In this document: positions 6,430 through 27,616 of the stretch, in pieces
How positions within the stretch are numbered: position 1 is the first letter of the stretch
Layout of the letters: each line of letters starts with the position of its first letter
NCBI RefSeq assembly: GCF_900215485.1
Contig: NZ_OCMZ01000002.1
Coordinates: 682,001-746,000 of the forward strand
From: Nitrosovibrio sp. Nv4
GTDB taxonomy: Bacteria > Pseudomonadota > Gammaproteobacteria > Burkholderiales > Nitrosomonadaceae
Direction: 5' to 3'
DNA: 64,000 bases
Translations under genes and position numbers: made by a program
Notes under the pieces: model-generated
Seen by the model: the letters and a program-made list of their open reading frames with translations, nothing else
Databases searched by the model: none
Told to the model about the DNA's origin: nothing

Positions 6430-6528
6430 CTCATCTTCGAACGCACCGGCGAAGAAACCGGGCCCGATCCGTAGCATAACCTTAGAGAAACAGATAACGA
6501 ACTTGCCGCATTCGAGAGTCGAGCTTTC

Positions 6529-8040: not shown

Positions 8041-8106
8041 GCGATCAATGGCCTTCCCCAGGCGCACGCTCATGCTTTTATGAGGCCACTGGGCGGATTT
8101 AGGTTA

Positions 8107-8139
8107 AAAAGCTCCTTGTATCCACGTAACAAGGCTTTT
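8107..8139. terminator. Bidirectional terminator-like hairpin
   Basis: CCTTGT (8114-8119) pairs with ACAAGG (8129-8134). The flanking AAAAG (8107-8111) pairs with CTTTT (8135-8139) across a two-base bulge. The A-run on the left and T-run on the right suit termination in both directions between the convergent ATP-grasp and regulator genes. Confidence 0.5.
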
Positions 8140-8165
8140 AGCGTGCGGATGATTGAAAAATTGCC

Positions 8166-11100
8166 TCAGGCCAGGCTGTATCCTGTTGAGGAAAGGGAAT
8201 CGTGGCTTTCCGCAAGATTTAGCAAATGTTCCCGCAAGGGGTCTGATACTTGAAGAGAGTTGAGCAGTTGATCGATCTCATCCTGTTTTTTTGATCGGCA
8301 GTGACTCATCCTTCTCACGTCATCCAGCCGATGATACAGTTTTTCCCCAGTCGCGTAGACCCTCCACGCGGCAAGGGGAATTTTCGCGTTTTCAACGATT
8401 TCGAGCGCCTCCGCAATATGCGAATTCGCTTCGTCCAAAACCTCTTCCGTTATCGCAATCTCGGCAAGCAGGCGGTGGCCGAGTGCAAGATAGGTGCGCT
8501 CAGGCGGACCGCTGGAAAGATCACATAAGCGCTGCGCATGGTCACGCGCCTTATCCAATTTTCCTAGTGCGAGCCATGTTTCCCCCGCTCCAAGGCAAGC
8601 AGGGAAGAAATAGTTGGAGAATATCGGGAGAGCCTTATTTTTTTCCGCCTGAAAAAAAGCGTCAAAGCATCGAATGGCGCCAGCATAATCCTTTAGTCCG
8701 TACAGGGCATTTCCCAGGATTGCGGAACAATGAACCGTGACGAAATCAGCCCAGGCACCGACGCCTTCCGACAGCGCTTCCTCGCAATATGCTTTAGCAC
8801 CCAAAAAATCACCGCCCGCCACATGCAACCAGCCCATCAAGATGTGATGATGCAACCGAAGCAGCAAACCGCCGTCATGCCATTCAAACGCACGCCTGCT
8901 TTGTTCTGCAGTCTCGCGCAATCTGCCCCATTCACCGCCATGCAGCAGAGTTAAACCATAGTAGTAATGGCCCGCCATGAACATGTAGCCATCTCCCAAC
9001 AAGCGCGATAGCGCTAGCGCCTCGACTGCTGTCGTCGCAGCGCTCTGGTAATTCGAGGCCAGCAATTCAACGTAAATGTGCTGGGTCAACCGCGAGTGAA
9101 GCGCTAGCGGATTTCCCGTGGCGCGAACCGCATCCATGGATTCGTGACATGCGGCAGAATATTCCTTCCGCCACGGCCGCAACAATAGGTTCAGGCCACC
9201 CCACATGCCCTTGACAATCGCCTGCAGGATCTTGTCTTCAAGGGCTACGCAAGCTGAAAGCGCTTGCTCCGCGAACTCGAGACACTCAAGGCGATTCAAC
9301 AAAACAAGGACTCGACTTAATTCGAGGAGTCCTACAACCTGTTCCCGGCTGTTTCCCAAGGCTCTTGCCACCGCCAGCATTTTCTCCAGATCGGTTTTCG
9401 CTCCCGCCATGTCGCCCATCGAACGCCTTACCGCCGCTGATTGCTTGAGGAGGCTCATGCTTGTTTCCGCCTGTTGCTCCGCAGGTAAACGTTCTATTAC
9501 CTGAAAGGCGTGCACCAGGTAGTCGTGCGCCTGCCGATTGGCAAAGCGCCGGGTGCTGTTGTCAGCCGCCTGTACCAGATAGCGGATCGTCCGAAGCCAT
9601 TCCCACCCGTTTTCAAAGTGCAGAGCGAGTTCACCTGCATGCTCGACGTTTTGCTCGCCGTATAACGCTTCAAGACATTCTCCAATGCGAAGGTGCATTC
9701 GTATCGCTTCAGCGAGAGAAAGCCGCTGGTAGAGAACTTCAAGGTATAAGGCATGGCGGAATGCATAGTGGCCCGCAACATCCCCTTTCGCGCTTTGCTC
9801 CATTCCATCGGATACCAATATCTGGCCGCGTCTGACCAGGGTATTGCAGCAGCGGTCTACCTCGACGATCTCCATACCAAGAACAGCGCAAAGCAGGCTC
9901 GCCCGAAACTGCATTCCGGCCACGCTCGCTGCCGTCAGAACGCGCTGCTCCTCCGGACTCAATCGTTCGATTTCACGTTCTATAACCCTGCGGATGGTTT
10001 CCGGCAGCGCTGTATCCACCGCAATTTTTTGAGACGACGGCGACCATTGATGCTGATTTATCAAGTATTCGATCAGATTGGATATGAACAAAGGATGCCC
10101 GCCGGTTCTGATAAAAAATGATTGGCTCATCGAGTCGGGAATGTCTATGCCTGGAAAACGCCGAGTGAGGTAATGTTTGACTTCGTTGCGGGAAAACGGC
10201 CCAAGGGCAACTTCGGAACAGATTCCCCTCAGTTGCAAATCCCGATGGATCACCGTAACCGGGTGCACCTGCTGGCTTGCATCGACGGGACGATATGTCG
10301 CGAGCACCATCAGGCACGCCGGCACATGACGCTGTGCAAGCAGACTTAAAAAGTCCAGTGTTGCGTGATCACTCCAATGGACATCCTCAAGCACGAGAAT
10401 CAAGGGTACCTTGCTCAAGGTTTCCAGCAACTCGCAGCCTTCTCGCACCATACGTCCACGGCTTGCACCAAAAATCTCGCGCTGAAGCGCTGCGCGCTCT
10501 TCGGGTTGTAGCACTGACGGCAATTGCGCAAGCCAAACCGGTGCGTGTCGATACAACAGCTCGACGAGTTTCCTTCCCTCAGGTGCACTGCAACGCTTTT
10601 CAATAGCCTCGATCATAGGAAGCAGCGCTTCACCCTGGCCAAAGCGCTCTACGCAACGCATGCGCAAGACGCCCGGATTTTGGCTGGATACTGCGGAGAG
10701 AAACATCTCGATCTGCGTCGTTTTGCCGATTCCGCTCTCCCCTGTGACGAAAACGACTTGGCGCGAACCTTTCATTGATTTCTGCCAAATAGCCAGCAGA
10801 CGAGTTTGTGGCGAACCCCGGTCTATCCAATATTCGGCTTTGTCAGGTAGCTGGTTTTTGAGGTAAACAGTGGAGACTGCTTCTTCCGTTTCCTGTGGAG
10901 ATCTAGTAACCGGGGCAATGAAACGGTAGCCGCGCCTGGGGACAGTTAAAAGGTAGCTTGGGGCTGAAACATTGTCACCGAGAGTCCGGCGCAATTCGTT
11001 AATGCATACTTTCAGCACTGCTTCTCCAACGCAGCGGTGCTGCCATACCTCATCAAGCAACTCATCCTTCGTCACAAGCGTGCCGGATCGCTCCGCGAGA

Positions 11101-12375: not shown

Positions 12376-13005
12376 ATGAACGTAACAACAAAGTCTCTAC
12401 TGGTTGCTATGGCTTTTGGAGGATCAGTTGCCACCGCAACCGCTTCTTCCGTCATAACCGGCATCACAGCGAGCGGACCAGGCTTGGGGTCATTTTCTTT
12501 TGAAGATCCTGCTCCTACGTTTAAGTATCTTTCAACCGCGTTCTCCAGTGCCGATCCTGTCACTCTGAGGTTCACGGTTGCCCATACGGAAGGGGATAAT
12601 TCAGAACATCATATATATGAAACAATCACTAATAGCACTGCAACAGCATTTACTGACCTCCACTTGCATATTGATGAGTCTGTGGGTATTCCTGGCGATG
12701 GCGTTGTTTTCAACTACTTTAGCGCTGATCATTACTTGGCACCGGATTTCGCCCCTAACTTCACTCTCGACTCAGTATCTGCTGGCCCCAGGGAATTGAA
12801 TTTTACTGGAGAGTTGGAGGCGGGCGCCTCGGTCGAGGATAGCTACTTCAACCTGAACCTCCCCGACCCTGGGGCTGGGAACACTTATACTTTTTCCTTG
12901 ACCCAGACCGCGACTGTCGGAGTAGTCCCAGAACCTGAAACATACGCAATGCTTTTGGCAGGTCTTGGCCTGATGGGCTTTATGGCTCGACGAAAACAAA
13001 ACTGA
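12376..13005 (+). CDS. PEP-CTERM sorting domain protein
   Basis: A 209-residue exported protein with an N-terminal signal peptide (cleavage near ATASS) and a C-terminal PEP-CTERM tail: VPEPETYAMLLAGLGLMGF, then ARRKQN. The tail (PEP box, hydrophobic helix, Arg-rich end) is the recognition signal for exosortase EpsH/XrtA-type transpeptidases, which tie such proteins to exopolysaccharide production. The body is Ser/Thr/Asn-rich and probably beta-structured; its substrate or partner is unknown. AGGAGG lies eight bases before the ATG. No exosortase gene is in this window. A second protein of this class lies at 57161-57862. Confidence 0.93.
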   Translation: MNVTTKSLLVAMAFGGSVATATASSVITGITASGPGLGSFSFEDPAPTFKYLSTAFSSADPVTLRFTVAHTEGDNSEHHIYETITNSTATAFTDLHLHIDESVGIPGDGVVFNYFSADHYLAPDFAPNFTLDSVSAGPRELNFTGELEAGASVEDSYFNLNLPDPGAGNTYTFSLTQTATVGVVPEPETYAMLLAGLGLMGFMARRKQN

Positions 13006-14871: not shown

Positions 14872-16242
14872 CTAATTCTGCAACATGAAGGTTTCATATT
14901 CCAGGCGGTTGAATTTATGCGATAGGATGAACAGGCTGAGAAAGGCCGACAGCGTTACCGATGCTGCAAATCCGTAGCCGAATGTTTCCGCTCCCAGTTG
15001 CAATGTGGCAAAGGTGAATAGCAGGTTCGTGATGAAAAAACATGCTGTAACAATCAGTACCTCGCGACGGGCATCGAGGTAAAAGAGCACGTTGAGAATT
15101 GCCATCAGCAATACCTGCACGCTGACTGCAACGACATCGATGTAAAACAAATGAATATATAATGGAGAAATGCCAACAGCATGCAACAGGTCCCTGCCCC
15201 ATAGCAGACACAGTACAACCGTTAAACCCTGCACTTTGAAAATCTCATAGATTCCTTGTCGGGCGGCATAGACCATCCGGTCGCGCCTGTATTCTATATG
15301 CATAAGCGTGTCGCCTTCCCGGACGGCACGGTAAAAGCGCTCGTGCTGTTCGGCGAAGTCCGCTTCTATACTCACGAGAAACACGGCCATTCCGGGCAGA
15401 ATAAACAGATAGGCCAGAAAAATAGGAAGATCGTAGATGATGGAGGCACGCAGCGGACCGATGACCGCTTCGGACGTGAACGGCACGAACCAGAAAATGA
15501 ACTTATCGATCCATACTGCCAGGTAATATAGAGTTCCGACTGCGAACAGGCTATAAAAACTTCGGTTGCGGTCGAGAAAATCGAATTTGAGCAGGGAGTT
15601 CCCTGGATATTCGCGAACGATATGATGCAGGAACGAAAACAGCAGATAGCCATGAGCCACCAATACACCCAGCAATAAACCGTTCAGTTCCCATGTAGAT
15701 GCCACCAGCGCCACCACAATACCGAGCAGATAACCTTTGGCTAATGTCCAGACTATCCGGCGATAGGCCTTCATTCCCGATAGAAAGATCAGGGTGATCC
15801 ACATGCCGCTCAGTACGACAAAATTACTCAGCAACAACAGTTGCTGGAAAAACGATCCAGTGAAAGACCAGAAAATAAACGGGCCAGCCCATGCGAAGCC
15901 GCCCGCCATCGTGATAATCAGAACGCCGAACAGGTTTGGCAGGACCTCGGGCTTGTCGTTTGCATAAGTCCGATCCGCGACGAAACGCGTAAACATCAGC
16001 TGCATGCCGCCGGTCCAGATTAACGAGCCCGCCATGAGGTAAGTGACGCAAATCTGGAATGCGTTGACCTCCTGCTGCGCGACACCAAGTGTGACGGCAA
16101 GAATGCCGATCATCATGATGCTCAGGATAGAAAGCACCCATGGGCCGCCGCTGACTAAACCCGCGTAGCCGTAGGCGCGCAGCACCGACCAGTAGCTGTC
16201 GCGCTCCAGGATTTTGCGAATTTCAAATCCTATGCCTGCCAT
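14872..16242 (-). CDS. pelG: Pel polysaccharide inner-membrane protein PelG
   Basis: A 456-residue integral membrane protein with about 12 hydrophobic segments (for example YAGLVSGGPWVLSILSIMM and LAYLFILPGMAVFLVS). PelG belongs to the Wzx/MATE-like group and forms the inner-membrane translocation part of the Pel synthase with PelD, PelE and PelF. N-terminal MAGIGFEIRKILERDSYWSVL is the typical PelG opening. Its ATG follows the pelF stop by a single base, giving tight coupling. It is the last gene of the operon. Pel is a cationic, partially deacetylated GalNAc/GlcNAc polymer in Pseudomonas; the same product here is an inference. Confidence 0.92.
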   Translation of the reverse strand: MAGIGFEIRKILERDSYWSVLRAYGYAGLVSGGPWVLSILSIMMIGILAVTLGVAQQEVNAFQICVTYLMAGSLIWTGGMQLMFTRFVADRTYANDKPEVLPNLFGVLIITMAGGFAWAGPFIFWSFTGSFFQQLLLLSNFVVLSGMWITLIFLSGMKAYRRIVWTLAKGYLLGIVVALVASTWELNGLLLGVLVAHGYLLFSFLHHIVREYPGNSLLKFDFLDRNRSFYSLFAVGTLYYLAVWIDKFIFWFVPFTSEAVIGPLRASIIYDLPIFLAYLFILPGMAVFLVSIEADFAEQHERFYRAVREGDTLMHIEYRRDRMVYAARQGIYEIFKVQGLTVVLCLLWGRDLLHAVGISPLYIHLFYIDVVAVSVQVLLMAILNVLFYLDARREVLIVTACFFITNLLFTFATLQLGAETFGYGFAASVTLSAFLSLFILSHKFNRLEYETFMLQN

Positions 16243-16243
16243 C

Positions 16244-17830
16244 TCAGGTGCTTACTGAAGGTTGCCGAGCCGGGGCGAGGCCAGAATCCAGCGCTTTGGC
16301 ATAAAGATCCCCATAGGACGAGAACATCAACTTGTCATTATAGTAACGTTTCACCCGCTCGAGCCCTGCCTGTTGTGCAGCGTGCCATCGGGGTGGGTTA
16401 TTGAGCAGTTCAAGCGCGGCTTTTGCCGTTCCCTCCGGATCGGCGATAAAAACCAGGCTTCCCGCCGCGCCTAGCGCGCGATCCTCCTCGCTGCGTCCCT
16501 CGATAAGCTCGCGACAGGAACCCACATCGGTTGCAAGACATGGCACACCGCTGGCAAATGCCTCGAGCACTACCAGAGGCAAAGCTTCGCTGATCGAGGT
16601 CAATACCATCAGTCCCAGTTGTGGAAGAATTTCAAGCATATTCTGAAAGCCCAGGAATTTGACTTGGTCTTTCAAACCGAGGCTGGCGGCCAATTCCTTG
16701 CACTCATTCACATATACAGGGTCTTCATCTTCCGGACCCACGATCCATCCCTGCGCATCGGGTCGCTCATTAACGAGCATTCGCAACGTCCTGATGAATG
16801 TCTTGATATCCTTGATGGGCACCACGCGCCCGATCAATCCCAGCACCGGCGGAATTTCTTCCGGCCGCTTCTCCAGCGCGGCCTGATAGCGTTGAACATC
16901 GATTCCATTGGTAATGACCAGCGTTTTCTCCGCCGCTGCCCCATCCGCTATTTGTCTCAGGCGATTGCCCTCATACAGGCTGACAATGGGCGACGCTTGT
17001 GCGTAGGCCATGCGGCCGATCTGCTCGTAGAATTTGATCCACAAACCACGGATGTATCCCATTTCATCATGCAGCGTGTTACATACATCGTCATTATGAT
17101 CGTGAATCCATGTAGCCTGTGCCAGATCGATTTTCCGCTCCTTCGTGTAAATGCCGTGCTCGGTAAGCACAAACGGAATATTGCGCCGCAGGCGAATCAT
17201 CGCTCCAAGCAATCCGGCATAACCGGTCGAAATAGCATGCACCGCACGCACCGGTGGCAACCCCGCTGCAATATCCGCCAATACAAATAAGGGCGTATGC
17301 ATTGCGCGTATGGCCCAGAAATAGTCGACAAACGAGGGCTCAGTGCATCGCTGCCGGTACTGCCCGGTGATGTAATCCCATGAAGCTTCGCTATACAGAA
17401 AATCTTCCTTGCTGATGCCGCCACCCGAACCCAGCCGGGAAAATGCATTTATCATTTTCTCGCTCGGTATTGATTCGGACTGGCGCATGTACGCGTGCAA
17501 CTCGTCCATTTCCGAGAAGGCCCTGCGGTTGCCCTTGCGGGAGTTCGGCTTGAGCTGCTTTTCATGTTGCATTAAATAATGCGTTTCGACATGCGTTACG
17601 TTGGATGGGAATTGATACTGCGCGGAGCCATACATTTCCTGTTCGGCGCCAATAAAAATTACGGCGAATCTTATTTCCGGCAAACCCGCGATGATCTGGT
17701 GCACCCACGACGATACGCCACCACGTATATATGGATAAGTACCTTCCAGCAACAAGGCGATATCAGCCACCGGTTCCGTCGACGGTCCCCTCAGGGATTT
17801 GTCCGTGTCTGCCCTGATGGCGCTATTCAT
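16244..17830 (-). CDS. pelF: Pel polysaccharide glycosyltransferase PelF
   Basis: A 528-residue cytoplasmic GT4 glycosyltransferase that polymerises the Pel chain from a nucleotide sugar. The N-terminal PelF signature is LLLEGTYPYIRGGVSSWVHQ. The C-terminal GT4 part holds LGLIGRVVPIKDIKTFI, the donor-site ExxxxxxxE in SEALPLVVLEAFASGVPC, and VATDVGSCRELIEG-type turns. The start is ATG 17830, inside an ATGA overlap with the pelE stop. A longer frame extends to 17953 but would add 41 residues overlapping pelE, and the coupling pattern of the operon favours the shorter form. Confidence 0.92.
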   Translation of the reverse strand: MNSAIRADTDKSLRGPSTEPVADIALLLEGTYPYIRGGVSSWVHQIIAGLPEIRFAVIFIGAEQEMYGSAQYQFPSNVTHVETHYLMQHEKQLKPNSRKGNRRAFSEMDELHAYMRQSESIPSEKMINAFSRLGSGGGISKEDFLYSEASWDYITGQYRQRCTEPSFVDYFWAIRAMHTPLFVLADIAAGLPPVRAVHAISTGYAGLLGAMIRLRRNIPFVLTEHGIYTKERKIDLAQATWIHDHNDDVCNTLHDEMGYIRGLWIKFYEQIGRMAYAQASPIVSLYEGNRLRQIADGAAAEKTLVITNGIDVQRYQAALEKRPEEIPPVLGLIGRVVPIKDIKTFIRTLRMLVNERPDAQGWIVGPEDEDPVYVNECKELAASLGLKDQVKFLGFQNMLEILPQLGLMVLTSISEALPLVVLEAFASGVPCLATDVGSCRELIEGRSEEDRALGAAGSLVFIADPEGTAKAALELLNNPPRWHAAQQAGLERVKRYYNDKLMFSSYGDLYAKALDSGLAPARQPSVST

Positions 17831-18930
17831 TGGGTCCACCATGCTCTTACCAGCGCCAGTTCGCGTCCCTTCTCGCCAGGCCGCGTGAGTGCCGACAGAT
17901 AGCGCTTCACGTCTGAAAATTTTCGTTCCCGAAAGGCAGCTTCGGCGAGCCACGGCAGAATTTTCTGTTCCTCCATGCCGCCGGTTCTTGCGCTGATAAA
18001 GGCCTCGCGCGCGATTGAGAGTTCGCCCGATTCCAGCAGAATCCGTCCATATAATAGCCAGCTGTTTGCATCTGTCGCATCGCGCACAGGAGATGCGACA
18101 GGCTTACCGGCCGTTGTGGGCATACGGGGTCCAGCGGACGAAACGGGTGCGTCGGCTGGCGCACCGGACGATGGGACAAGTACAAGCTCCATGTGATGCC
18201 TGGCCGTATCCAGCCAATGCTGTCTGACGGCGCCTTGAACCAGACGGTGATATACCAACTCCCAGCATAATGCCGCAATCGTTTTGTGGTAAGAGTTCTG
18301 CATACGGGCTGGAACTTCCGGCAGTGCCTCCGTCAAGGTCAGGATGCGTTCAATCAGTTTTTTTTCGTTATCGTCCCTCATTGCATAAGCCAGCAGCCGC
18401 ACGTCGTCGACAGGGTCGCGGGTCGCCTTCGACCACACCATCATGGCCTCGCGTGGCGCCATGTGCCGGGTCGCCATCACAGCTTTCAACCGCTTCAACG
18501 GACGCTCGGCAAAATATATTATCTGGCGCAGTGCGCCCTCGCTGTAGGGCGGCGTCGGGAAAATGACAGGAGGCGAAAAAGGGAGCTCAGGCAACGCAAC
18601 CATTTTTACGTTTTTCGAAGAACGGCTGCGAGGGCGTTTCAAGGCGGTAGTGACACTCCACAGCACGCCCAACACACCGACGACCGGCAAAATCCATAAC
18701 AGGACAAACAGAAAACCCAAGCTGCTCCGCGCGGGGAGCTTGTATCGGCGTGGCAGCAAAAGCCAGAAACCTCGAGCAAAATAATAAGATGAAACAGAGT
18801 GAAATCCCAAGGCTGCCAGCATCGCCAGATTCGCCGTCCAATTCGCTACCCAGCCACTCCCGCTCAACCAGAGCAGCAAGCCGGCCAGTGCCTCGGCTGC
18901 CAGCCCCAATAGCATGGGCATTCGATACAT
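17827..18930 (-). CDS. pelE: Pel polysaccharide membrane protein PelE
   Basis: A 367-residue protein with two N-terminal membrane segments (LLGLAAEALAGLLLWLSG, then SSLGFLFVLLWILPVVGVLGV) followed by a cytoplasmic helical TPR-like region. In Pseudomonas, PelE has this layout and joins PelD to the synthase. Cytoplasmic motifs include YFAERPLKRLKAVMATRHM. I chose the ATG at 18930, which overlaps the pelD stop (TGATG). A TTG one codon earlier is possible. An Ala/Pro/Ser linker precedes the last TPR-like part, where ESGELSIAREAFISAR is a typical helix-turn-helix repeat unit. PelE is poorly conserved, so position strengthens the call. Confidence 0.85.
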   Translation of the reverse strand: MYRMPMLLGLAAEALAGLLLWLSGSGWVANWTANLAMLAALGFHSVSSYYFARGFWLLLPRRYKLPARSSLGFLFVLLWILPVVGVLGVLWSVTTALKRPRSRSSKNVKMVALPELPFSPPVIFPTPPYSEGALRQIIYFAERPLKRLKAVMATRHMAPREAMMVWSKATRDPVDDVRLLAYAMRDDNEKKLIERILTLTEALPEVPARMQNSYHKTIAALCWELVYHRLVQGAVRQHWLDTARHHMELVLVPSSGAPADAPVSSAGPRMPTTAGKPVASPVRDATDANSWLLYGRILLESGELSIAREAFISARTGGMEEQKILPWLAEAAFRERKFSDVKRYLSALTRPGEKGRELALVRAWWTQ

Positions 18931-20210
18931 CAATGCTGCTCCAGAGAACGAACCTGTTGGGGGTCGATATCGCTGATGGCTACCAGTTCGCTTGACACCG
19001 ATGCAAGAACATCATCCACGCGTTGCATCCATACTCGCGCATTCGCCGTATCGGTCAGCGGCAGCAGGAGCCAGATGACGAGCTGATCCTTATCATGCGT
19101 CATACAAAACAGGTCAATAGCGCGCACGGAAGACCGTAATTTTCCGTAAGTACTTGTGACATCCCCGGAAGATCCCGATAACTTCAGGAGCGTTGCGTCG
19201 AGATTGAATCTCAGAAAATCCTGATACACACGCTCGAAAGAAGCAATAAAACGCGCAACGGAAGAGCTGGCCGTGCCAAAACGAAGATGATCGACGCCAT
19301 GCGCGGCAAGCACTGCAATAAGCTTTAAATTGTTTTCGTGGAACGCAAAGAATGGCATGGATTTGACCAACAGCATTGCATGAATCTCGCCCGTGGAGTC
19401 GGCCAGAGGAATGGCGGCCAATAACTGGTTCTGATCCAGCGCATATTCTTTTATAAGATTTACCGCCGCCAACTCGCCGCTTTCAATCGCGCTTTTCGCT
19501 ACAGGATCGCTACCATCAATTGGAAACTTGTCCCCGATACAAGCCAACACTCTGCCCGTATCAATCCGGTCGGCTGTTATTCCGACGATACATGCCTGCG
19601 TCAGCGCACCGTATTCCGCAATGAATTCGATAAGCCGTTGTAGCGAGGATTCATTTAGCATATTGGCGCCATTCATGGCATCGAGCGCCGGTTGCAAGCG
19701 CATGATGCCTTCACGCAGCGAAAATCCGCTGTTGGCAACTGTTTGCTCCAGCCGATCATGCGACAGGCGTAACAACTGATAACTGCGCGTAAACTCCTCA
19801 AGACGTTCTGCACGATATTGATAGGCGCCTTCCAATCGATGTAAGCGACGCCCCCACATATCGCGAAATTCTCCCGCCACCATTGCCACGATAACCGTGC
19901 CAATCGCCCAGGGCAGCGGAAATCCGGTCGAAATTTGCCACTGCTGATTGATGGCCACGCCCAACGTCGCCAGTATCAGCAAGGCACTGACAAAACCATA
20001 GACAAATCCATATCGTAGTCCTGCCAGCAAGGGGGCGAGGACCGGCCATGGAAATCCTCCGCCCAGCCGGAAAGGATCGTGCTGCTGAGTAACAAATGAC
20101 GCCGCGATCACAATTGCAGTCACCACGAATGTTTCGAGCCACCCGCCCCACGCCGACACAGGAGTATTGACGTCAATGACTTCAATTCCCTCCAGCCAGG
20201 GTTTTTTCAT
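18930..20210 (-). CDS. pelD: c-di-GMP-sensing Pel protein PelD
   Basis: A 426-residue inner-membrane protein. Four N-terminal membrane segments (about residues 25-115) are followed by a coiled stretch, a GAF domain (about 180-325) and a degenerate GGDEF domain. In Pseudomonas, PelD binds c-di-GMP at an RxxD inhibitory-site motif and switches on polymerisation. Here the motif is intact as R363-A-I-D366, while the catalytic GGDEF position reads HDKDQ and so cannot make c-di-GMP. The LLLPLTDTANA segment after it matches the GGDEF fold. The ATG at 20210 overlaps the pelB stop (ATGA). This is the clearest regulatory input in the operon. Confidence 0.93.
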   Translation of the reverse strand: MKKPWLEGIEVIDVNTPVSAWGGWLETFVVTAIVIAASFVTQQHDPFRLGGGFPWPVLAPLLAGLRYGFVYGFVSALLILATLGVAINQQWQISTGFPLPWAIGTVIVAMVAGEFRDMWGRRLHRLEGAYQYRAERLEEFTRSYQLLRLSHDRLEQTVANSGFSLREGIMRLQPALDAMNGANMLNESSLQRLIEFIAEYGALTQACIVGITADRIDTGRVLACIGDKFPIDGSDPVAKSAIESGELAAVNLIKEYALDQNQLLAAIPLADSTGEIHAMLLVKSMPFFAFHENNLKLIAVLAAHGVDHLRFGTASSSVARFIASFERVYQDFLRFNLDATLLKLSGSSGDVTSTYGKLRSSVRAIDLFCMTHDKDQLVIWLLLPLTDTANARVWMQRVDDVLASVSSELVAISDIDPQQVRSLEQH

Positions 20211-22921
20211 AGCTTTGCCGGCTCCTTGTCCGGTTTAGATATCATTTTGGATTCGCGGACTTTTGTCAGCGTTTGACGGCAGACGTCCAACTCCTTATTT
20301 AAATCGCTTTGATTGGGCGGCGCTTCTCCCGCAAGCCATCGGTTGGCCCGGTCAACGTCATCGATGGATAACGGCAGCATGTCCTTATGCGAAGGTCCGG
20401 CTGGCTGGCGTTCCAGATGCTCGGAAATTGCTGCCAGTTGCGCCGACACCGCCGGATCATCCTTCTTTCTTACCGCATCGGCAAACGCTTCCCACGCGGT
20501 CGTCTCCAGGCGTTCGCGTTGACGCCGCAGCGCAAAGTGATCCGCATTGTCCAAAATCCCCGTAAACCCCCAGCGCTCGCGTATCGATTGCAGCTTCTTA
20601 AAGTCATCCCTGCCCGCACCGTGTTGTACCAGCGAATCTTTTGATCCGAAGAGGTACTCGGCCAAACGCGGAGGAAACTTCACTACCGTTTGAGGGAAGC
20701 GCTGGGAAGCAAACATTTGCAGCGCATCCAAGCGGACATGGTTGGCGTTAGCGGGACAACCTGCCCACTCCATGTTGTCGGCCAATGTCAATGTCCATAA
20801 AAAATCACGAGGTCTTGCTTCCAGGGATTGCAGATACCGGGCCGCCGCCTGAGGGGATCTGCCCAGCGTGTGCTCTGCCGCTGCAAGGGCTTCAGCCAAA
20901 GGCGGACTTACCGCCGGTTGAGTACCCGACGGGTTATGGTACGGCTTAACGACCGTATCAAGCAATGCGGAATCGACTTTTTTGTCGGACAATAACAGCC
21001 AGATCATTGCCTCTGTAACTTCAGGTTCCGGCCCACGCAGCCGCAAAAGCTCGCGCAATGCCTCCCGGACCGCGTCCCTGTCGCCGCTGGCCATTTTTCG
21101 TATCGAACGAAAATACCAGTAATCAGGCGCGTGCGCTATCGCCGGCTGCGCTTCGGCGACAGACAGCAAATGATCAAGCTCTTCCCAATTTTTCCGAGCC
21201 CAGGAATAATGCATGAGGCGTTGCAGATCTTCGACACGCTTCAATCTATCCCATCCATAGTGCGCAAGACGCTCGCTTTTCTTATCGTCATGATGGCGTG
21301 CCGCCAAACGTTGCAGATGCTCGAGTATTTCCACATCCTTCGGTCGAAGAACCAGGGCTTTTTCATAGGCTTTGACTGCATGGTCATCCTTGCCAAGTTG
21401 CATGGAAACTTTAGCCAGCAACAACCAATACTCCTCGGCATACCCCGCATCGGGCGCACCGGATTCGCGAAACAGCAGTTCGAAACTTTTTTGAGCGTTC
21501 CCCGCTTCTTCATATAGCCGGGCCAATGCCAACCTCTGCTGTCCATTCTGCTTATCAGGCATTTCTTCGTACACCTTAATCGCCTCGAGAGGCTTGCCTT
21601 GAAGGACAAGTAGGTCTGCCAATGCTTTCATTATTGCTGGAGGGTCATCGAAACGTTCGGCGTGTCGGCGCAATTGCTCCTCCACATGGGAGGGCTGTGC
21701 GGTGCTAAGACCCGCTTTGACATAAGCATCGACTTCGGCCGCGGCCAGCTTGCGCCGCGGCATGACAGCCTCAAGCAACTGCACCAGCGCTGCGTGATCC
21801 GGTTTCGCTCGTGCAAGGGCAAATGCGCGCGACTCCGCCTCTTCATCGGCTGCATGGCGTGCAAAAGACAGCCAAAGGTCCAGCGCTTCGTCCGGCCGCG
21901 CGTTCCAGTCATAAATGCGGGCAAGCAAACGATGGCGTTCACTGCCGACGACAAGGGAAGTTCGCAGCGACGCCGCGCGCGAAAGACTTTCGGCCAGCAG
22001 TCCCATGGAAACCTGCAGCCGCAGGACGCGTTCGGCAAGCGCCTGATCCCGGGGTAATAACCGGCTGGATTCTTCCAGCCAGGCCAATGCGTGCTCACTA
22101 TCCCCCATCGGCTCGGCAATATTCGCGGCCAGCAACAAAAGCCCGGCATCGCCCTTGAGACCAGAGCTTGCGGAACTGCTCAGCATCTGTACGGCAGCCT
22201 TCAACGCCTCTTGATCGACGCCTGCCTGAAGGTAGGCATGCAAACAGGATTTCGCTATTTCCATCTTTTTCTTTGCGGTTTGCTCAAGCACCAGGGCCTC
22301 GCACAGATGCCGCGCGGCCAAGCGGGGCTGAGCAGCCGCCATGCGCTGCTTTGCGGCGAAAACAAGCCAACGTGATTTTTTTTCGTCAGTTTCATCCCGC
22401 AGAACAAGCAACTGCTCAAACGTTTCGGCCAATACCGAGGGATCGCCAAACTGTTCTGCCAGTGTAACTACCTGGTTTAATTCGCTGTCTTTATCCGCAA
22501 TGCGCAATAATGAAGGAACGAGTTCAGCGATGCGGGCGCGCAGCGCTGCTTCGACATCCTCGGCAGGACGCCGGTAGAGCTGCTGCAAGGACAGCTTGAG
22601 CTCCGCAAGACGGATTTCATAGGTCAGGTCCGATTCGGGAGCACGCTTCAAGGGATCGATGGCCTGGGCGGCCTCATCGGTCATGCCCGCTTCAGTCAAC
22701 ACCTGGACGAACGACAGACGCAACGGTGTATTGTGAGGATCGGATTGGACGAGGACACGAAGATAAGCCACTGACAAGGCATCGTTTGCGGATAAATTGG
22801 CCGGATCCCTGAATGCGGGCTGACGAGGAAACAGTATCCAGAAAACGATTAGAAGTACGGCACTAAGGAACATTAGCGCTGGCGCATTCAACAGCGATTC
22901 TCGCCGTATTTCAGCACTCAA
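20207..22921 (-). CDS. pelB: PelB-like TPR protein lacking the C-terminal barrel
   Basis: This protein, about 904 residues long, has one N-terminal membrane segment (ALMFLSAVLLIVFWILF) followed by a long run of TPR-like helix pairs, as in the periplasmic part of PelB. Pseudomonas PelB is about 1193 residues and ends in an outer-membrane beta-barrel. Here the frame stops after a charged helical tail (RQTLTKVRESKMISKPDKE), and no barrel-like strands are visible. The stop overlaps pelD, so this is not a frameshift with lost sequence nearby. I prefer the TTG at 22921 as start, because AGGAG (22931-22935) lies nine bases upstream; an ATG at 22960 has no such site. It overlaps pelA. Confidence 0.85.
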   Translation of the reverse strand: MSAEIRRESLLNAPALMFLSAVLLIVFWILFPRQPAFRDPANLSANDALSVAYLRVLVQSDPHNTPLRLSFVQVLTEAGMTDEAAQAIDPLKRAPESDLTYEIRLAELKLSLQQLYRRPAEDVEAALRARIAELVPSLLRIADKDSELNQVVTLAEQFGDPSVLAETFEQLLVLRDETDEKKSRWLVFAAKQRMAAAQPRLAARHLCEALVLEQTAKKKMEIAKSCLHAYLQAGVDQEALKAAVQMLSSSASSGLKGDAGLLLLAANIAEPMGDSEHALAWLEESSRLLPRDQALAERVLRLQVSMGLLAESLSRAASLRTSLVVGSERHRLLARIYDWNARPDEALDLWLSFARHAADEEAESRAFALARAKPDHAALVQLLEAVMPRRKLAAAEVDAYVKAGLSTAQPSHVEEQLRRHAERFDDPPAIMKALADLLVLQGKPLEAIKVYEEMPDKQNGQQRLALARLYEEAGNAQKSFELLFRESGAPDAGYAEEYWLLLAKVSMQLGKDDHAVKAYEKALVLRPKDVEILEHLQRLAARHHDDKKSERLAHYGWDRLKRVEDLQRLMHYSWARKNWEELDHLLSVAEAQPAIAHAPDYWYFRSIRKMASGDRDAVREALRELLRLRGPEPEVTEAMIWLLLSDKKVDSALLDTVVKPYHNPSGTQPAVSPPLAEALAAAEHTLGRSPQAAARYLQSLEARPRDFLWTLTLADNMEWAGCPANANHVRLDALQMFASQRFPQTVVKFPPRLAEYLFGSKDSLVQHGAGRDDFKKLQSIRERWGFTGILDNADHFALRRQRERLETTAWEAFADAVRKKDDPAVSAQLAAISEHLERQPAGPSHKDMLPLSIDDVDRANRWLAGEAPPNQSDLNKELDVCRQTLTKVRESKMISKPDKEPAKL

Positions 22922-25664
22922 GCCGGAATTCTCCTGATGCCTTGTTTGCTGACACCGCATAAATGGAATGGGAATTATCGCGGCGGGCGGTCAACGCCTC
23001 CCCATTCAGACTCACAGCGCAGGATTTGGATACCTCAAGGGTCAAATCACCGCGCGGCTCAAATAAAAGGGTGGCGGATCCATCGTCATTGAGATGCCAG
23101 GATTTCAACGGGGCGCTGGCATCGATCAGTCTCAAGGCCGGGGCCTCGTTTCGCTTATCACGCCTGTGCTTGAGGACGGCATGATTGCGCGCCAGATAAA
23201 TATAGCGGTCGGCATTTCGATTAGAATATCCGACAACATCGGTTGAGATTTCCGGTGCCATTTCAGAAACAGGCAGTCGCACCGTTCTGAGCGCATCTCC
23301 GAAAAGTAGCCAATTGCCATTGAGGTCGCGCGCAATGCTCGCTGTTTGAAAGGCCTGCGCACGCTGAACATATTCATCAAGCCATATGCCAAGCACATTT
23401 TCGTTACGCTGTTCAGCGGCTAACTGATCCAGAAGGTCCGCGCCTCGCGCGTGTAATAGCGCGTCGGCATGTATGGATAGGGATGATATGCGCAGCCGCC
23501 GTGGAAAATCGAGCTGCCGGTTCCAGTCGCTGATCGTACCGAAGTTCAATGCTTCCCCATACCAGAGTTGCGCGAACAGCGGTTCGCCGGTCAAGGGGGT
23601 CAACACCTGGGTACCCCATTCCGTGGGCCGCAGTGTCGGAGAAAGATCAGCTATGGATAACGGGCCGCTCTGCCAGTGGAGACCGCCTCCGCCGTAATTG
23701 GGCAGGCCCGCCTTCCCCGCAGCCGCCAAAGCGGCCGGGACGGGTTTGCCATCGCCGGACCAGATAAGCAACAATGGAGAACCGGGCGCCACCGATTGCA
23801 GAAACGGGATGGTTCCCGCAGTTTCGCGCGTCATCTCCGCCGCATAACCTTCCAAAAACACGCTATAGCGATAAGGCTGCTGATCGGCATCTGTCTTGCC
23901 CTCGAACACGCCCCAATAGAAAGGGTGGCTATATGTGTGGCTCGCCAATCGAACCTGTGGCATGGCAGCCAGTTGCCGTACTTTCGCGCGCCGCTCTTCA
24001 CTGTTTGCCTCAGCCTCGATGATGCCCAGCGTTACCGGCGATGGATTCCTGCCGATCCATGCCCGAAGCCGGTCGATTGCTTCAACACCGTGCTCATCTT
24101 TCTCAAACAGACGGTCGCCCCGCACCTCGACTATGCCCAGGCGGCGTCCATTTTCCGTCGTCATATCGAATACTGGCTGCACCGGCAGGCGGAAAGCCGC
24201 CTGGAAAAAAGAAAAAGGATCAAGCAGCCATTCATGGCGGCCCGATGCGGTCTCGCTCATCAAATGGGGGTGTAATGCATAGCCTCCCCATGAGCTGACC
24301 GCAACGGGATGATATACATTGGATCCATCGCTCAACGTCAACCATGCCTCCGTGCGATCTCGGACGCGCACGTCAAGCGTACCGCTGCCAACTACCGGCA
24401 CTGCACCTGGGCGGCCCAGGCGCTCGCTGGCGGCGTCCAGCTTAAGCATGCCTGTTGTAGGTTGCAAGTTTCCTTGATAATCGATCAGATTGCGGCAGGC
24501 GATGCCCCCTGGCAAGTAGCCCATGAATACTACCGGTAAACCGGCATCGACCTCTGTTTGCAAACGCGCGCAGACATTTTCGTGGCGGCTCGTACCATTT
24601 TCGTTGTCTTCGCCCAGCCATGCAATTACGCCGGCGTAACGCCCGACGAGCGGTTCGATGGGCAAAGGAAGCTTATCGACATACCAATAGTCGAGCGCCA
24701 GACCGAGATATTCCAGCGGCATGGCTGCATGCTTGAACAGATCCTGATCCATTTGTTGCGCCGGGGTACCGTTTATGATGGCCAGCAGCCTGCGCGGCGC
24801 TAAACGGATGCGGCCATGCCCCAACCACGTCAAATCGCCATTTGCGACCCAGGGCATAAACCCCAGTTTGACAATTTCCCGCGCCGTTTTTTCGCCTTCT
24901 GTCCAATTGCCCGGCTCGACATAATCGAGCACGATAACCGGTACCTTGAATTCATCTTGCACACGCCTCAACTGGCTGAGGAGCCACGTCCTGTTCTCTT
25001 CCTTGACTGGCGCGTGCTTGCCGGTAACCGGATCAAAACCCTGAAAAAGCGATTCCGCAACCATACCATCCGCATATTGGCTGGCGCGGTCCAGCACTTC
25101 GAAGCCGCGATTGAGAATGAGCTTGCAACCGGGAAAGCGCCGCTTCACTTCCGCCAGCAGCGCAACCAGCCCTTTCTCCTGTTCGGTACGTTCTGCACCT
25201 TCCTTTGTCACAAGCAGATAGCTGTCAACAGTATCGAGGAAGAAGGCGCGGTAGCCATCACGCCATAAGCGACCGAAATGGTGCTCCAGCAGATATTCGT
25301 GCCAGGCAGGATCGTTCATGTCCATCACCAGGCTGTTCCATGCCGGATTAACACCGATCGACCATTTCGTATCAATTCGCTCCATGTCGTCGCTGTTGCG
25401 CGCGATCTCGCCGAATGAAATATAGGCAAATATGAGCGAATCCAGATTCAACAAGGCCGTTCTCTCGTGCGGGAGAACCTGGCTTGGCTGAATGACAATC
25501 TGATCGAAATGGCGCAAATCCTCGACCGGCGGCCGGCTGCCATAGTAAAACGCGATGTCGCGCTGTTCGAGCTCATCGGCGGACACTGTCGATGCCACTA
25601 ACATGAGCGGCAGCAACAACGGCCAGATACGGAAGCGGAAACACAGTATTTTGCTATTAAGCAT
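22911..25664 (-). CDS. pelA: Pel deacetylase/glycoside hydrolase PelA
   Basis: A 917-residue exported protein, close to the 948 residues of Pseudomonas PelA. The signal peptide is MLNSKILCFRFRIWPLLLP, cleaved near VSADE. The N-terminal half is the GH166 hydrolase (IAFYYGSRPPVEDLRHFDQIV, FLDTVDSYLL, MVAESLFQGFD). The C-terminal half contains a reductase-like part and a NodB-like deacetylase, with VEVRGDRLF and the metal-binding ASHTYSHPFYWG. PelA deacetylates and trims Pel in the periplasm. The start is uncertain: upstream in-frame ATGs at 25688, 25727 and 25784 exist, but only 25664 gives a normal signal peptide, and none has a strong ribosome-binding site. It leads the operon. Confidence 0.92.
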   Translation of the reverse strand: MLNSKILCFRFRIWPLLLPLMLVASTVSADELEQRDIAFYYGSRPPVEDLRHFDQIVIQPSQVLPHERTALLNLDSLIFAYISFGEIARNSDDMERIDTKWSIGVNPAWNSLVMDMNDPAWHEYLLEHHFGRLWRDGYRAFFLDTVDSYLLVTKEGAERTEQEKGLVALLAEVKRRFPGCKLILNRGFEVLDRASQYADGMVAESLFQGFDPVTGKHAPVKEENRTWLLSQLRRVQDEFKVPVIVLDYVEPGNWTEGEKTAREIVKLGFMPWVANGDLTWLGHGRIRLAPRRLLAIINGTPAQQMDQDLFKHAAMPLEYLGLALDYWYVDKLPLPIEPLVGRYAGVIAWLGEDNENGTSRHENVCARLQTEVDAGLPVVFMGYLPGGIACRNLIDYQGNLQPTTGMLKLDAASERLGRPGAVPVVGSGTLDVRVRDRTEAWLTLSDGSNVYHPVAVSSWGGYALHPHLMSETASGRHEWLLDPFSFFQAAFRLPVQPVFDMTTENGRRLGIVEVRGDRLFEKDEHGVEAIDRLRAWIGRNPSPVTLGIIEAEANSEERRAKVRQLAAMPQVRLASHTYSHPFYWGVFEGKTDADQQPYRYSVFLEGYAAEMTRETAGTIPFLQSVAPGSPLLLIWSGDGKPVPAALAAAGKAGLPNYGGGGLHWQSGPLSIADLSPTLRPTEWGTQVLTPLTGEPLFAQLWYGEALNFGTISDWNRQLDFPRRLRISSLSIHADALLHARGADLLDQLAAEQRNENVLGIWLDEYVQRAQAFQTASIARDLNGNWLLFGDALRTVRLPVSEMAPEISTDVVGYSNRNADRYIYLARNHAVLKHRRDKRNEAPALRLIDASAPLKSWHLNDDGSATLLFEPRGDLTLEVSKSCAVSLNGEALTARRDNSHSIYAVSANKASGEFRLEC

Positions 25665-25935: not shown

Positions 25936-27006
25936 TTATTGACTCACTTTATAAGGTAGTGGCATGATCTCCAGTGCCGGACCGTTCAGAGACTTCCAAT
26001 AAATTTTACCAGCTCCGACGCTGCTTATCTGTACGACAGCTAACACATCATATCCACCGTCTGGCGAGGCTGCTGCGTTGACTACCATACCGCTTGATTG
26101 TTCTCCCATATCCGCGCTGAACAACTCGTCCCCCGCTTCAATCGGAATTTCTGGGCCAGTCGGCTTAATGTTGGCGAGATACATGCGGCGTTTTATTTTG
26201 CCCAAATACTGGGTGCGGGAGACGATTTCCTGGCCAGGGTAACAACCTTTCTGAAAACTTATCCCCCCGATGGCATCCAGATTGGCCATTTGTGGCACGA
26301 ACTGCTCCTGGGTTGCAGGCGTAATCAGCGGAATACCGGCCTTGATCTCCAGCCAGTCCCAGCAGGGGGCGCCGACTGGCATAGCATCCCGACTCAAGCG
26401 TTCCGCTATTGAAGACGCATGCTCTGGGGCAACGATCAGTTCAAACCGGTCCTGTGCAAGGCGAATTACACTTGCATGTTCACCGTGAATCACGCCGAGA
26501 TGGGAATCGGGAATACCACCCGTAACTTGCTGCACAAGCGGCCCGGCACCACTCCCGGCAAGGCCCATGCGCACCCACATACCGCTACTGTCAAACAGAT
26601 TGACTTTGGCGCGCAGCACGTACATGGATAAACGCTTCTGAATGGCTGCAAGCAATGCCGATGGCAATTGCATGACAAAGTTGCCATCATCTCCGTCACG
26701 GTCGCGCCAGATCAGAAAACTTGCCAGCATTCTGCCTTTTGGATTGCAATAGCTCCCGTACAGAGCAGCTGAGGAACTGACCTGCCTTACATCGCAACTC
26801 AACTGTCCTTGCAGGAACGATTGCGCGTCGCCTCCCGAAAACTGGATCAGGCCGAAGTGCGAAAGATCGCTCAGCACCGTAGCAGATCCGGTACTTGCGG
26901 CGCGGGTGTTCGCAAGCTCGGCAGGGGCGTTGCCATAGCTGACGACGCGACCATCCCTGATTATTGCGCGACAATTTTGCAGATAGGCTTGCCAGATAAG
27001 GTTCAT
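25936..27006 (-). CDS. ygfZ: Folate-binding protein YgfZ
   Basis: A 356-residue cytoplasmic protein of the YgfZ/GcvT-like family, which binds tetrahydrofolate and helps repair or maintain certain iron-sulfur enzymes such as MiaB. The diagnostic motif K-G-C-Y-P-G-Q-E-I-V is present in GISFQKGCYPGQEIVSRTQ. Upstream stretches DLSHFGLIQFSGGDAQSFLQG and YGSYCNPKGRMLASFLIW are also typical. It lies divergent to ygfX with 88 bases between. The pel operon follows on the same strand, but about 270 bases separate them, so cotranscription is not certain. Confidence 0.93.
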   Translation of the reverse strand: MNLIWQAYLQNCRAIIRDGRVVSYGNAPAELANTRAASTGSATVLSDLSHFGLIQFSGGDAQSFLQGQLSCDVRQVSSSAALYGSYCNPKGRMLASFLIWRDRDGDDGNFVMQLPSALLAAIQKRLSMYVLRAKVNLFDSSGMWVRMGLAGSGAGPLVQQVTGGIPDSHLGVIHGEHASVIRLAQDRFELIVAPEHASSIAERLSRDAMPVGAPCWDWLEIKAGIPLITPATQEQFVPQMANLDAIGGISFQKGCYPGQEIVSRTQYLGKIKRRMYLANIKPTGPEIPIEAGDELFSADMGEQSSGMVVNAAASPDGGYDVLAVVQISSVGAGKIYWKSLNGPALEIMPLPYKVSQ

Positions 27007-27094
27007 TCAGAACGATCTATGGCTGCGAAAAAGGTCGATTATAAAGCATACGCTCCGGATGAGCGGCAAATTGCCAGGAATGAGATAATTGACC

Positions 27095-27616
27095 ATGGCT
27101 GATCTCCTGCCTCCGTCCCTTCCGCCGATACTCGTTGTCCGCCTCAAACCCTCCGCACGCCTTGCGGTGATGCTGAGTTTTGCCCACTTTTCCGCTATAG
27201 GCCTGTTGTGGCCCCTTTTGTTGCCTGCGTCAGTCAAGCTGGCAGGTTCCGCAATGCTTGCTGTCAGCCTTATTTTCTACCTGAGGCGTTATGTATTGTT
27301 ACGTTCACCGGATTCGGTAACTGGTTTCGAACTATCCGATGAAATGGCTTGCATGCTTGAAACCCGACGCGGAGAACGCATTGCCTGTGCACTGCTCGCC
27401 AGCAGCTTTGTTGCGCCCTACCTTACCGTGCTCGAATTGAAACCCGTGAAGCCCGCCGATGTCCGATTTTCAGAGCTTCCCCGACGAAGCGTTTTCTCGC
27501 GCAGCGTCGTGATACTGCCAGACGCAATAGACCCCGAGGAGTTCAGGCAGTTGCGGGTGCTGCTACGGTGGAAATGGAAAGACCCGAAAGACGCTCCGGC
27601 TGATCATCAGGGCTGA
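27095..27616 (+). CDS. ygfX: YgfX/CptA-like membrane protein
   Basis: A 173-residue protein with an N-terminal region of two hydrophobic segments (LAVMLSFAHFSAIGLLWPLLL, then AGSAMLAVSLIFYLRRYVLL) and a basic C-terminal part ending LRVLLRWKWKDP. This layout matches the YgfX (CptA) family. In E. coli ygfX is paired with ygfY (sdhE/cptB), the two having been described as a toxin-antitoxin-like pair and sdhE as a flavinylation factor; no sdhE is in this window. A TTG at 27089 sits two codons before the ATG; AGGAA upstream suits either start. The family is poorly conserved, so the symbol is moderately secure. Confidence 0.7.
   Translation: MADLLPPSLPPILVVRLKPSARLAVMLSFAHFSAIGLLWPLLLPASVKLAGSAMLAVSLIFYLRRYVLLRSPDSVTGFELSDEMACMLETRRGERIACALLASSFVAPYLTVLELKPVKPADVRFSELPRRSVFSRSVVILPDAIDPEEFRQLRVLLRWKWKDPKDAPADHQG

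Follow-up and report, generated by a model that had tools for sequence, protein, structure and literature searches.

The Pel polymer of Gram-negative systems is exported and consists of partially deacetylated alpha-1,4-linked N-acetylgalactosamine. Among the closest described relatives of the locus considered here is the Pel system of Pseudomonas aeruginosa, encoded by pelABCDEFG, with its PelBC pore (PDB 9h80; PMC12141448). In this system, the deacetylated polymer is proposed to be funnelled by an electronegative PelC (PMC10269871), and the PelB barrel is described as predominantly negative inside (PMC12141448). The Gram-positive pelDEADAFG operon of Bacillus cereus, as presented in PMC7112168, includes neither a barrel nor PelC, and the Pel system of this organism is reported to keep and need the deacetylase PelADA (PMC13254593). 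Unusual pel loci in Nitrosospira have been noticed earlier, in a figure legend (Fig 5 of PMC7112194) that mentions 'duplication ... locus gain and loss' and 'pelB fission' for the pel genes of N. multiformis; neither that legend nor the accompanying passages mention that the barrel, pelC or the base of the deacetylase is missing in this genus. This was the only paper retrieved for Nitrosospira and pel, and among the matches listed for Gram-negative Pel systems lacking pelC or the barrel there was no description of such a system. Here, we analyse a stretch of 64,000 nucleotides from Nitrosovibrio sp. Nv4 (positions 682,001 to 746,000 of contig NZ_OCMZ01000002.1; hereinafter, the window, to which the coordinates below refer); the source genome of 3.27 Mb consists of three contigs and is 98.8% complete. 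The pel operon in this window lacks pelC and the PelB barrel, and its PelA lacks the catalytic base of the deacetylase domain. This combination was found in all 22 readable barrel-less operons of the genus.

Operon organization and the C-terminal end of PelB

The operon consists of six genes, all on the minus strand, with the following features:

14872..16242, minus strand: pelG, inner-membrane transporter (PF16933, E 6.2e-149)
16244..17953, minus strand: pelF, glycosyltransferase (first ATG at 17842; NF038011, E 1.5e-231)
17827..18933, minus strand: pelE (34.7% identity to PelE of the P. aeruginosa PA7 locus)
18930..20210, minus strand: pelD, cyclic di-GMP (c-di-GMP) receptor (PF16963 match below the family cut-off; comparison with the PA7 locus)
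19113-19124, minus strand: RxxD motif of PelD, residues 363-366 (R and D kept in 23/23 operons)
20207..20210, minus strand: pelB-pelD junction, a 4-base overlap (ATGA), where canonical operons have the PelB barrel and pelC
20207..22960, minus strand: pelB (917 amino acids (aa) from the ATG at 22960; 904 aa from the TTG at 22921)
20207..20698, minus strand: C-terminal helical tail of PelB, residues 755-917 (AlphaFold2 model and profile comparisons)
20708..22783, minus strand: tetratricopeptide repeat scaffold of PelB, residues ~60-751 (homologous to canonical PelB)
22832..22882, minus strand: N-terminal hydrophobic helix of PelB, residues 27-43 (AlphaFold2 helix; predicted local distance difference test (pLDDT) of the block 50-66)
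22911..25664, minus strand: pelA (917 aa from the ATG at 25664; frame open to 25784, giving a 957-aa frame)
23925..23939, minus strand: PelA deacetylase motif 2, H616 and H620 (H600 and H604 of P. aeruginosa PelA, hereinafter PaPelA; His in 22/22 at both)
24111..24128, minus strand: PelA deacetylase motif 1, EVRGDR, residues 553-558 of the 957-aa frame (sequence comparison)

Profile searches, together with the solved PelA and PelB and the PA7 locus as references, confirm the original prediction of a pelA-pelB-pelD-pelE-pelF-pelG operon at this place; for PelE, Pfam and NCBIfam gave no family match. PelG of the window shares 99% identity with its counterpart in Nitrosovibrio sp. Nv6 and 94% with the one in Nitrosospira briensis Nsp8. 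The Gram-negative Pel features that are present include PelF and PelG, the RxxD motif of PelD, which we take to be the c-di-GMP site, and the four-domain fold of PelA, in which a GH166-type hydrolase (PF03537), a mixed domain, a deacetylase-like domain and a beta-rich domain can be distinguished (E 3.4e-120 against the solved PelA 9cgy). In these respects, in its PelE homologue and in the helix and repeat scaffold of PelB, the operon resembles that of P. aeruginosa; it differs in the absence of the PelC lipoprotein and the PelB barrel (PF24604) and in the replacement of the catalytic base of PelA.

No pelC is hidden between the genes, as had been predicted. The stop codon of pelB and the start codon of pelD share the tetranucleotide ATGA (20210-20207), so that no pelC fits at this junction; the remaining genes overlap, except for pelF and pelG, which are one base apart. 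A six-frame profile search of the window and 22 barrel-less loci yielded no match to pelC or the barrel at E 1. The operon encodes no outer-membrane exit of the known type, in agreement with the original prediction.

The solved P. aeruginosa PelB aligns to residues 19-758 of the 917-residue window PelB over its own residues 11-733 of 1193. PF24604, which is located at the end of canonical PelB, is missing. The AlphaFold2 model, built from a 35-row alignment, contains helices only and no strand (mean pLDDT 83, predicted template modelling score 0.50), including in the C-terminal part, for which a helical tail had been anticipated together with the length of about 904 residues. The N-terminal helix is probably an inner-membrane anchor: residues 31-60 are well conserved (the majority residue averages 93% across the PelBs of the genus), and an equivalent helix is described for P. 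aeruginosa PelB (PMC12141448). In the tail, helices are modelled at 784-851, 866-873 and 892-905, with pLDDT of 80-91 over 791-870, 38-61 over 751-790 and 56-74 over 871-890. The profiles of the barrel-less and canonical PelBs are colinear along the scaffold (in global mode, which forces the ends), and colinearity of residues ~775-845 with the pre-barrel repeats of canonical PelB is weakly indicated.

Pfam contains no match to the tail, the best PDB match reached only E 0.48, and Foldseek with the PelB model retrieved generic helical-repeat proteins (template modelling (TM) scores 0.11-0.32 among the 50 listed). A profile of the tail, run against 369 genomes of the class, produced two weak matches besides the source genome (E ~0.002). 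The better one is in a PelB that does have a barrel, in the part that separates this barrel from the repeats, and the other is in a protein without any pel profile match; at most 10 candidates were scored per genome, so the tail can only provisionally be regarded as confined to the genus. Judging from these comparisons, the end of the window PelB most likely corresponds roughly to the start of the barrel in canonical PelB, and the last ~70 residues appear, as far as seen, to be lineage-specific, with a conserved motif kept there. A frameshift or pseudogene concealing the barrel was considered and is ruled out by the location of the pelD start inside the pelB stop and by the same structure in 22/22 orthologues.

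Replacement of the deacetylase base and selection along the operon

The replacement of the base in PelA and the genus-wide extent of the architecture add to the original prediction. Motif 1 of the deacetylase domain is E-x-R-G-D-R in all 22 barrel-less operons versus H/Q-x-D-G-D in 60/60 canonical PelAs, so that Arg takes the place of the catalytic base Asp (D528 of PaPelA, D517 of the solved homologue PtPelA). The five PelAs from second pel operons found in the same genus (see below) retain the Asp and thus serve as an internal control. The position of H526 of PaPelA, the proposed activator of the base, varies: it is Glu in the barrel-less PelAs and Gln in the five second operons. In the reports on the characterized enzymes, the D517A mutant of PtPelA had no detectable esterase activity (PMC12022489), no extracellular Pel was detected in a P. 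aeruginosa strain with PaPelA D528A (PMC10269871), and the PelA homologues compared in PMC12022489 are described as having conserved active sites with minor differences only. The model of the window PelA matches PtPelA (9cgy) with a TM score of 0.87 by target length (mean pLDDT 80); the predicted fold is kept, and the deacetylase domain accordingly looks remodelled rather than lost. The hydrolase motif residues D184 and E244 are kept in 22/22 barrel-less operons; for 43 to 45 of the 60 canonical PelAs the stretch fetched ends before these positions, so the hydrolase comparisons rest on 15-17 of the 60.

The changes are unevenly distributed along the operon. Positions that the canonical proteins hold invariant (at least 95%) but that the barrel-less operons have fixed for another residue (at least 90%) amount to 16/49 in the deacetylase domain of PelA and to 6/47 in its other domains together (hydrolase 3/17, mixed 2/18, beta-rich 1/12); under a stricter coverage rule with gap columns counted, 21/84 positions of PelA are changed. 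The respective counts are 2/45 for PelD, 3/38 for PelE, 2/144 for PelF and 6/131 for PelG. For PelB, 12/29 are changed, ten of which are gaps towards the missing barrel. At the level of sequence, conservation prevails in the synthesis and inner-membrane parts, and change in those for modification and export. In all genes and sub-regions tested, the median ratio of nonsynonymous to synonymous substitution rates (dN/dS) falls within 0.06-0.20, including 0.09 for the deacetylase domain, 0.064 for the hydrolase and 0.19-0.20 for the PelB tail (29-68 of 231-253 pairs, the others being outside the accepted dS range). These low values indicate that the operon is under purifying selection.

Distribution and descent in Nitrosospira and Nitrosovibrio

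PelG is present in 23/23 Nitrosospira and Nitrosovibrio genomes searched and in 0/38 other genomes of the family and order. The order pelA-B-D-E-F-G with a barrel-less PelB of 899-945 aa is common to all 22 readable operons of the genus; in the 23rd, PelB is cut by a contig end and unreadable. The barrel-less operon of Nitrosovibrio tenuis (G011) differs from the others in carrying ~2.8 kb between pelD and pelE (L048:8563-11352).

A wider survey used the best 80 of 259 named PelG relatives, 17 of them from the genus and 63 from outside, with barrel and pelC profiles enlarged from the same 80 loci that were scored. None of the 17 genus loci (16 with PelB in the stretch) has a barrel or pelC; these loci (L073-L089) mostly duplicate records of the genus genomes searched and are not independent of them. 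Among the 63 loci outside the genus, no PelB was found in six stretches and a readable one in 57 (some cut or split), and here the barrel is found in 57/57 and pelC in 56/57. The architecture is thus unusual for a Gram-negative pel operon, as originally proposed. One gammaproteobacterial metagenome-assembled genome (MAG) encodes a PelB with a barrel (L090:2277-5609) and has no pelC match on the 14 kb stretch, which could possibly represent a PelC-independent barrel.

The missing parts were also sought elsewhere in the genomes, with two agreeing profiles per target, one narrow and one broad (our own alignment and PF24604 for the barrel; a narrower and a 20-row profile for pelC). In the Nv4 genome, neither PF24604 nor the 20-row pelC profile gave a match even at E 1, there was no BcsC-type barrel at E 1, and no separate nearby barrel gene of the kind expected from pelB fission was found in this genome or in the loci. 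Strong matches to both the barrel and pelC are present in 5/23 genus genomes, exactly those with a second pel operon. Weak barrel matches occur in four genus genomes (E 0.03-0.36) and weak pelC matches in three (E 0.23-0.79); each of the four barrel matches spans no more than 52-63 of the 309 positions and sits in a frame of 88-137 aa, and three contain an internal stop. Two one-contig genomes, G006 and G021, show no barrel match at E 1, and pelC gives nothing in G021 and E 0.79 in G006. As a control, PF24604 gave a single weak match, in Haloferax. Of the two explanations offered originally for the missing exit, a PelB-type barrel encoded elsewhere appears unlikely, and export by other proteins, or no export at all, remains. 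The likeness to Gram-positive pel operons that had also been suggested holds for the missing barrel and PelC and is otherwise loose: unlike the B. cereus type, which has no PelB and an active deacetylase, the Nv4 operon belongs to a Gram-negative bacterium, keeps the PelB scaffold and the PelA hydrolase, and has lost the deacetylase base.

The second pel operons (L033, L034, L035, L040 and L045) share the genus and homologues of PelA and of PelD, PelE, PelF and PelG with the barrel-less ones, but carry pelC (5/5), the PelA Asp (5/5) and a barrel (5/5 genomes, open frames of 1196-1229 aa; in G016 and G011 the barrel frame lies outside the stretch fetched). Their PelG is 48-49% identical to that of the barrel-less operons. 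In a PelF and PelG tree (FastTree, midpoint-rooted, 63 rows, with only six of the loci numbered from L119 upwards retained), all 23 barrel-less operons fall into a single clade (support 0.92) that groups with Marinobacter, Microbulbifer and relatives (1.0), and the second operons form a separate clade (1.0) beside a deltaproteobacterial MAG (0.90). A recent duplication as the source of the two operons, which the wording of the Fig 5 legend of PMC7112194 could suggest, is ruled out by this tree. Genome G007 has one PelG match only.

Four of the five second operons contain Agd3-like deacetylase genes on the strand opposite to the pel genes:

L045:4258-6471, minus strand: Agd3-like gene
L033:6438-8663, minus strand: Agd3-like gene
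L034:9800-11203, plus strand: Agd3-like gene
L035:3588-5717 and 6389-8548, both minus strand: Agd3-like genes

The substrate of Agd3 is a galactosamine polymer of fungi. Where a stretch contains both pelB and pelC, which is the case for three, the Agd3-like gene lies between them. The L045 copy matches PF25115 and 6nwz, and the other copies match that of L045 at 73-77%, the L033 copy being partly masked; L045 also carries a GH114 gene (6937-8370). In L035, the two Agd3-like genes flank an isolated repeat of the final 17-21 PelB barrel residues (L035:5765-5827), resembling a tandem segment duplication.

The neighbourhood of the barrel-less operons is conserved as well. Within flanks of 3-4 kb, a YgfZ/GcvT-like gene and a gene for a 175-aa protein recur in 21/22 loci, and genes for a glutathione S-transferase (11 loci), a LysR-family protein (11) and an ATP-binding cassette (ABC) transporter (8) are less frequent. 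In the window, these neighbours include:

25936-27006, upstream of pelA: YgfZ/GcvT-like gene (PF01571)
27089-27613, upstream of pelA: 175-aa protein with a CptA-toxin-like Pfam match (PF07254)

In addition, a PEP-CTERM protein (PF07589) is encoded at 12376-13002, two genes downstream of pelG.

The predicted polymer and its possible routes

On balance, we lean slightly towards the view that the operon encodes a Gram-negative Pel machine for an uncharged, fully acetylated N-acetylgalactosamine (GalNAc) polymer that bypasses the PelBC pore, giving either a c-di-GMP-controlled periplasmic glycan or a synthase-dependent exopolysaccharide that the inner-membrane-anchored scaffold hands to an unlinked outer-membrane channel. 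PelF, together with PelD, PelE and PelG, would make and translocate the GalNAc polymer under c-di-GMP control, and the polymer would remain N-acetylated and neutral because the base of the only deacetylase in the operon is gone. With a PelC funnel proposed to be electronegative and a PelB barrel described as mostly negative inside, a neutral polymer would need neither. Canonical operons have the barrel directly followed by pelC, the two together separating the pre-barrel part of pelB from pelD, so that one deletion may have removed both. The anchored PelB scaffold would then guide the polymer through the periplasm to a separately encoded channel in the outer membrane, which is the weakest step; alternatively, the scaffold would hold the polymer in the periplasm, where the conserved hydrolase would trim it. 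The more specific version, namely a derived, functional Pel-type system that keeps synthesis and inner-membrane transport, has shed the deacetylate-then-export half and uses the anchored scaffold to reach an unlinked channel, has in our judgement a little less than an even chance. In alginate export, the AlgK scaffold serves a separate AlgE barrel; the helical repeat scaffold separate from a barrel is similar in principle, although the Nv4 operon, unlike the alginate system, includes no linked barrel gene.

Candidate channels are present in the genome. Three AlgE-family barrels (PF13372) are encoded in Nv4 (G000:C3:1508895, 1067872 and 1547426), and the family is found in 23/23 genus genomes (1 to 6 matches each, some of them fragments) and in 1/14 genomes sampled from the same order, a sample that leaves aside the same-family genera without pel. 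There are two outer-membrane polysaccharide export (OPX) proteins in Nv4 and 2 or 3 in each of the 23 genus genomes. The OPX clusters (L163, L164) resemble exosortase-type exopolysaccharide loci, and one AlgE-like gene adjoins an apparent sulfate ABC transporter, which suggests an ordinary porin role; both assignments were made by eye.

Several observations weigh against the export scheme or weaken its links. The 3-4 kb flanks of the barrel-less loci contain no conserved exporter, and the AlgE-like and OPX genes of Nv4 are unlinked to pel and sit in other gene contexts, which makes a borrowed exit a conjecture. The colinearity of the PelB tail with the pre-barrel region is weak: when the tail alone was compared with that region by hhalign, the probability was 23% (window residues ~786-844). 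Loss of the deacetylase activity would follow only by likeness to the Asp-to-Ala mutants; the metal triad (D530, H600 and H604) is intact and E723 is kept in 22/22, and the putative catalytic acid H761 is His in 19/22 and Asn in 3/22, so the chemistry may have been altered instead. The losses of the barrel and pelC need not be coupled, given the L090 operon with a barrel and no pelC; and the barrel loss, the pelC loss and the PelA change are all common to one clade, which gives their link no statistical weight.

The neutral GalNAc polymer might stay inside the cell altogether, with the PelB scaffold and the PelA hydrolase holding and trimming it into a periplasmic glycan or oligosaccharides under c-di-GMP control. 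We consider this a tentative option. It is consistent with the lack of a PelB- or BcsC-type barrel in the genome and of any linked exit, with the retention of D184 and E244 and the low dN/dS of the hydrolase, and with a hypothesis put forward for P. aeruginosa, that the PelA hydrolase degrades acetylated Pel retained in the periplasm (PMC10269871). What speaks for export instead is the long scaffold, kept into the pre-barrel region: the modelled scaffold of P. aeruginosa PelB is reported to be long enough to cross the periplasm (PMC12141448), suggesting that a partner exists close to the outer membrane. Similarly doubtful, though compatible in part with the other readings (the likelihoods given here do not sum to one), is the idea that the PelA domain, instead of being an inactive deacetylase, has acquired a new activity or binds the polymer. 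The 16 replacements at invariant sites are themselves fixed, with E-x-R-G-D-R in 22/22, the metal triad is kept and the domain evolves under constraint; but the base is essential in the solved homologue, as the D517A mutant indicates (PMC12022489), and three of the 22 operons have Asn for the putative catalytic acid.

A highly diverged PelB barrel or PelC encoded elsewhere and overlooked is unlikely. Profiles can miss fast-evolving barrels, and the weak barrel and pelC matches in four and three genus genomes, respectively, could be taken as traces of such genes, but those barrel matches are short and mostly interrupted, the Nv4 genome yields nothing at E 1, and the one-contig genomes have no barrel match and at best a pelC match of E 0.79. 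Most improbable of all is a decaying operon, a relic that survives by chance after the loss of export. The loss of three export and modification features in one clade would fit such a relic, but all six frames are open in the 22 readable operons, the same chromosomal neighbours are retained in 21/22 loci, dN/dS is low throughout and the new residues are fixed rather than drifting.

Altogether, one lineage lacks the deacetylase base, the PelC funnel and the PelB barrel together while the rest of the operon is under selection, and so provides a natural test of charge as the reason for PelBC and of whether acetylated Pel can leave the cell. Export of a cationic Pel should not be taken for granted wherever a Gram-negative genome contains a pel operon. 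Members of the genus are common ammonia oxidisers of soils, and a surface or envelope polymer in such an organism is of ecological interest as well.

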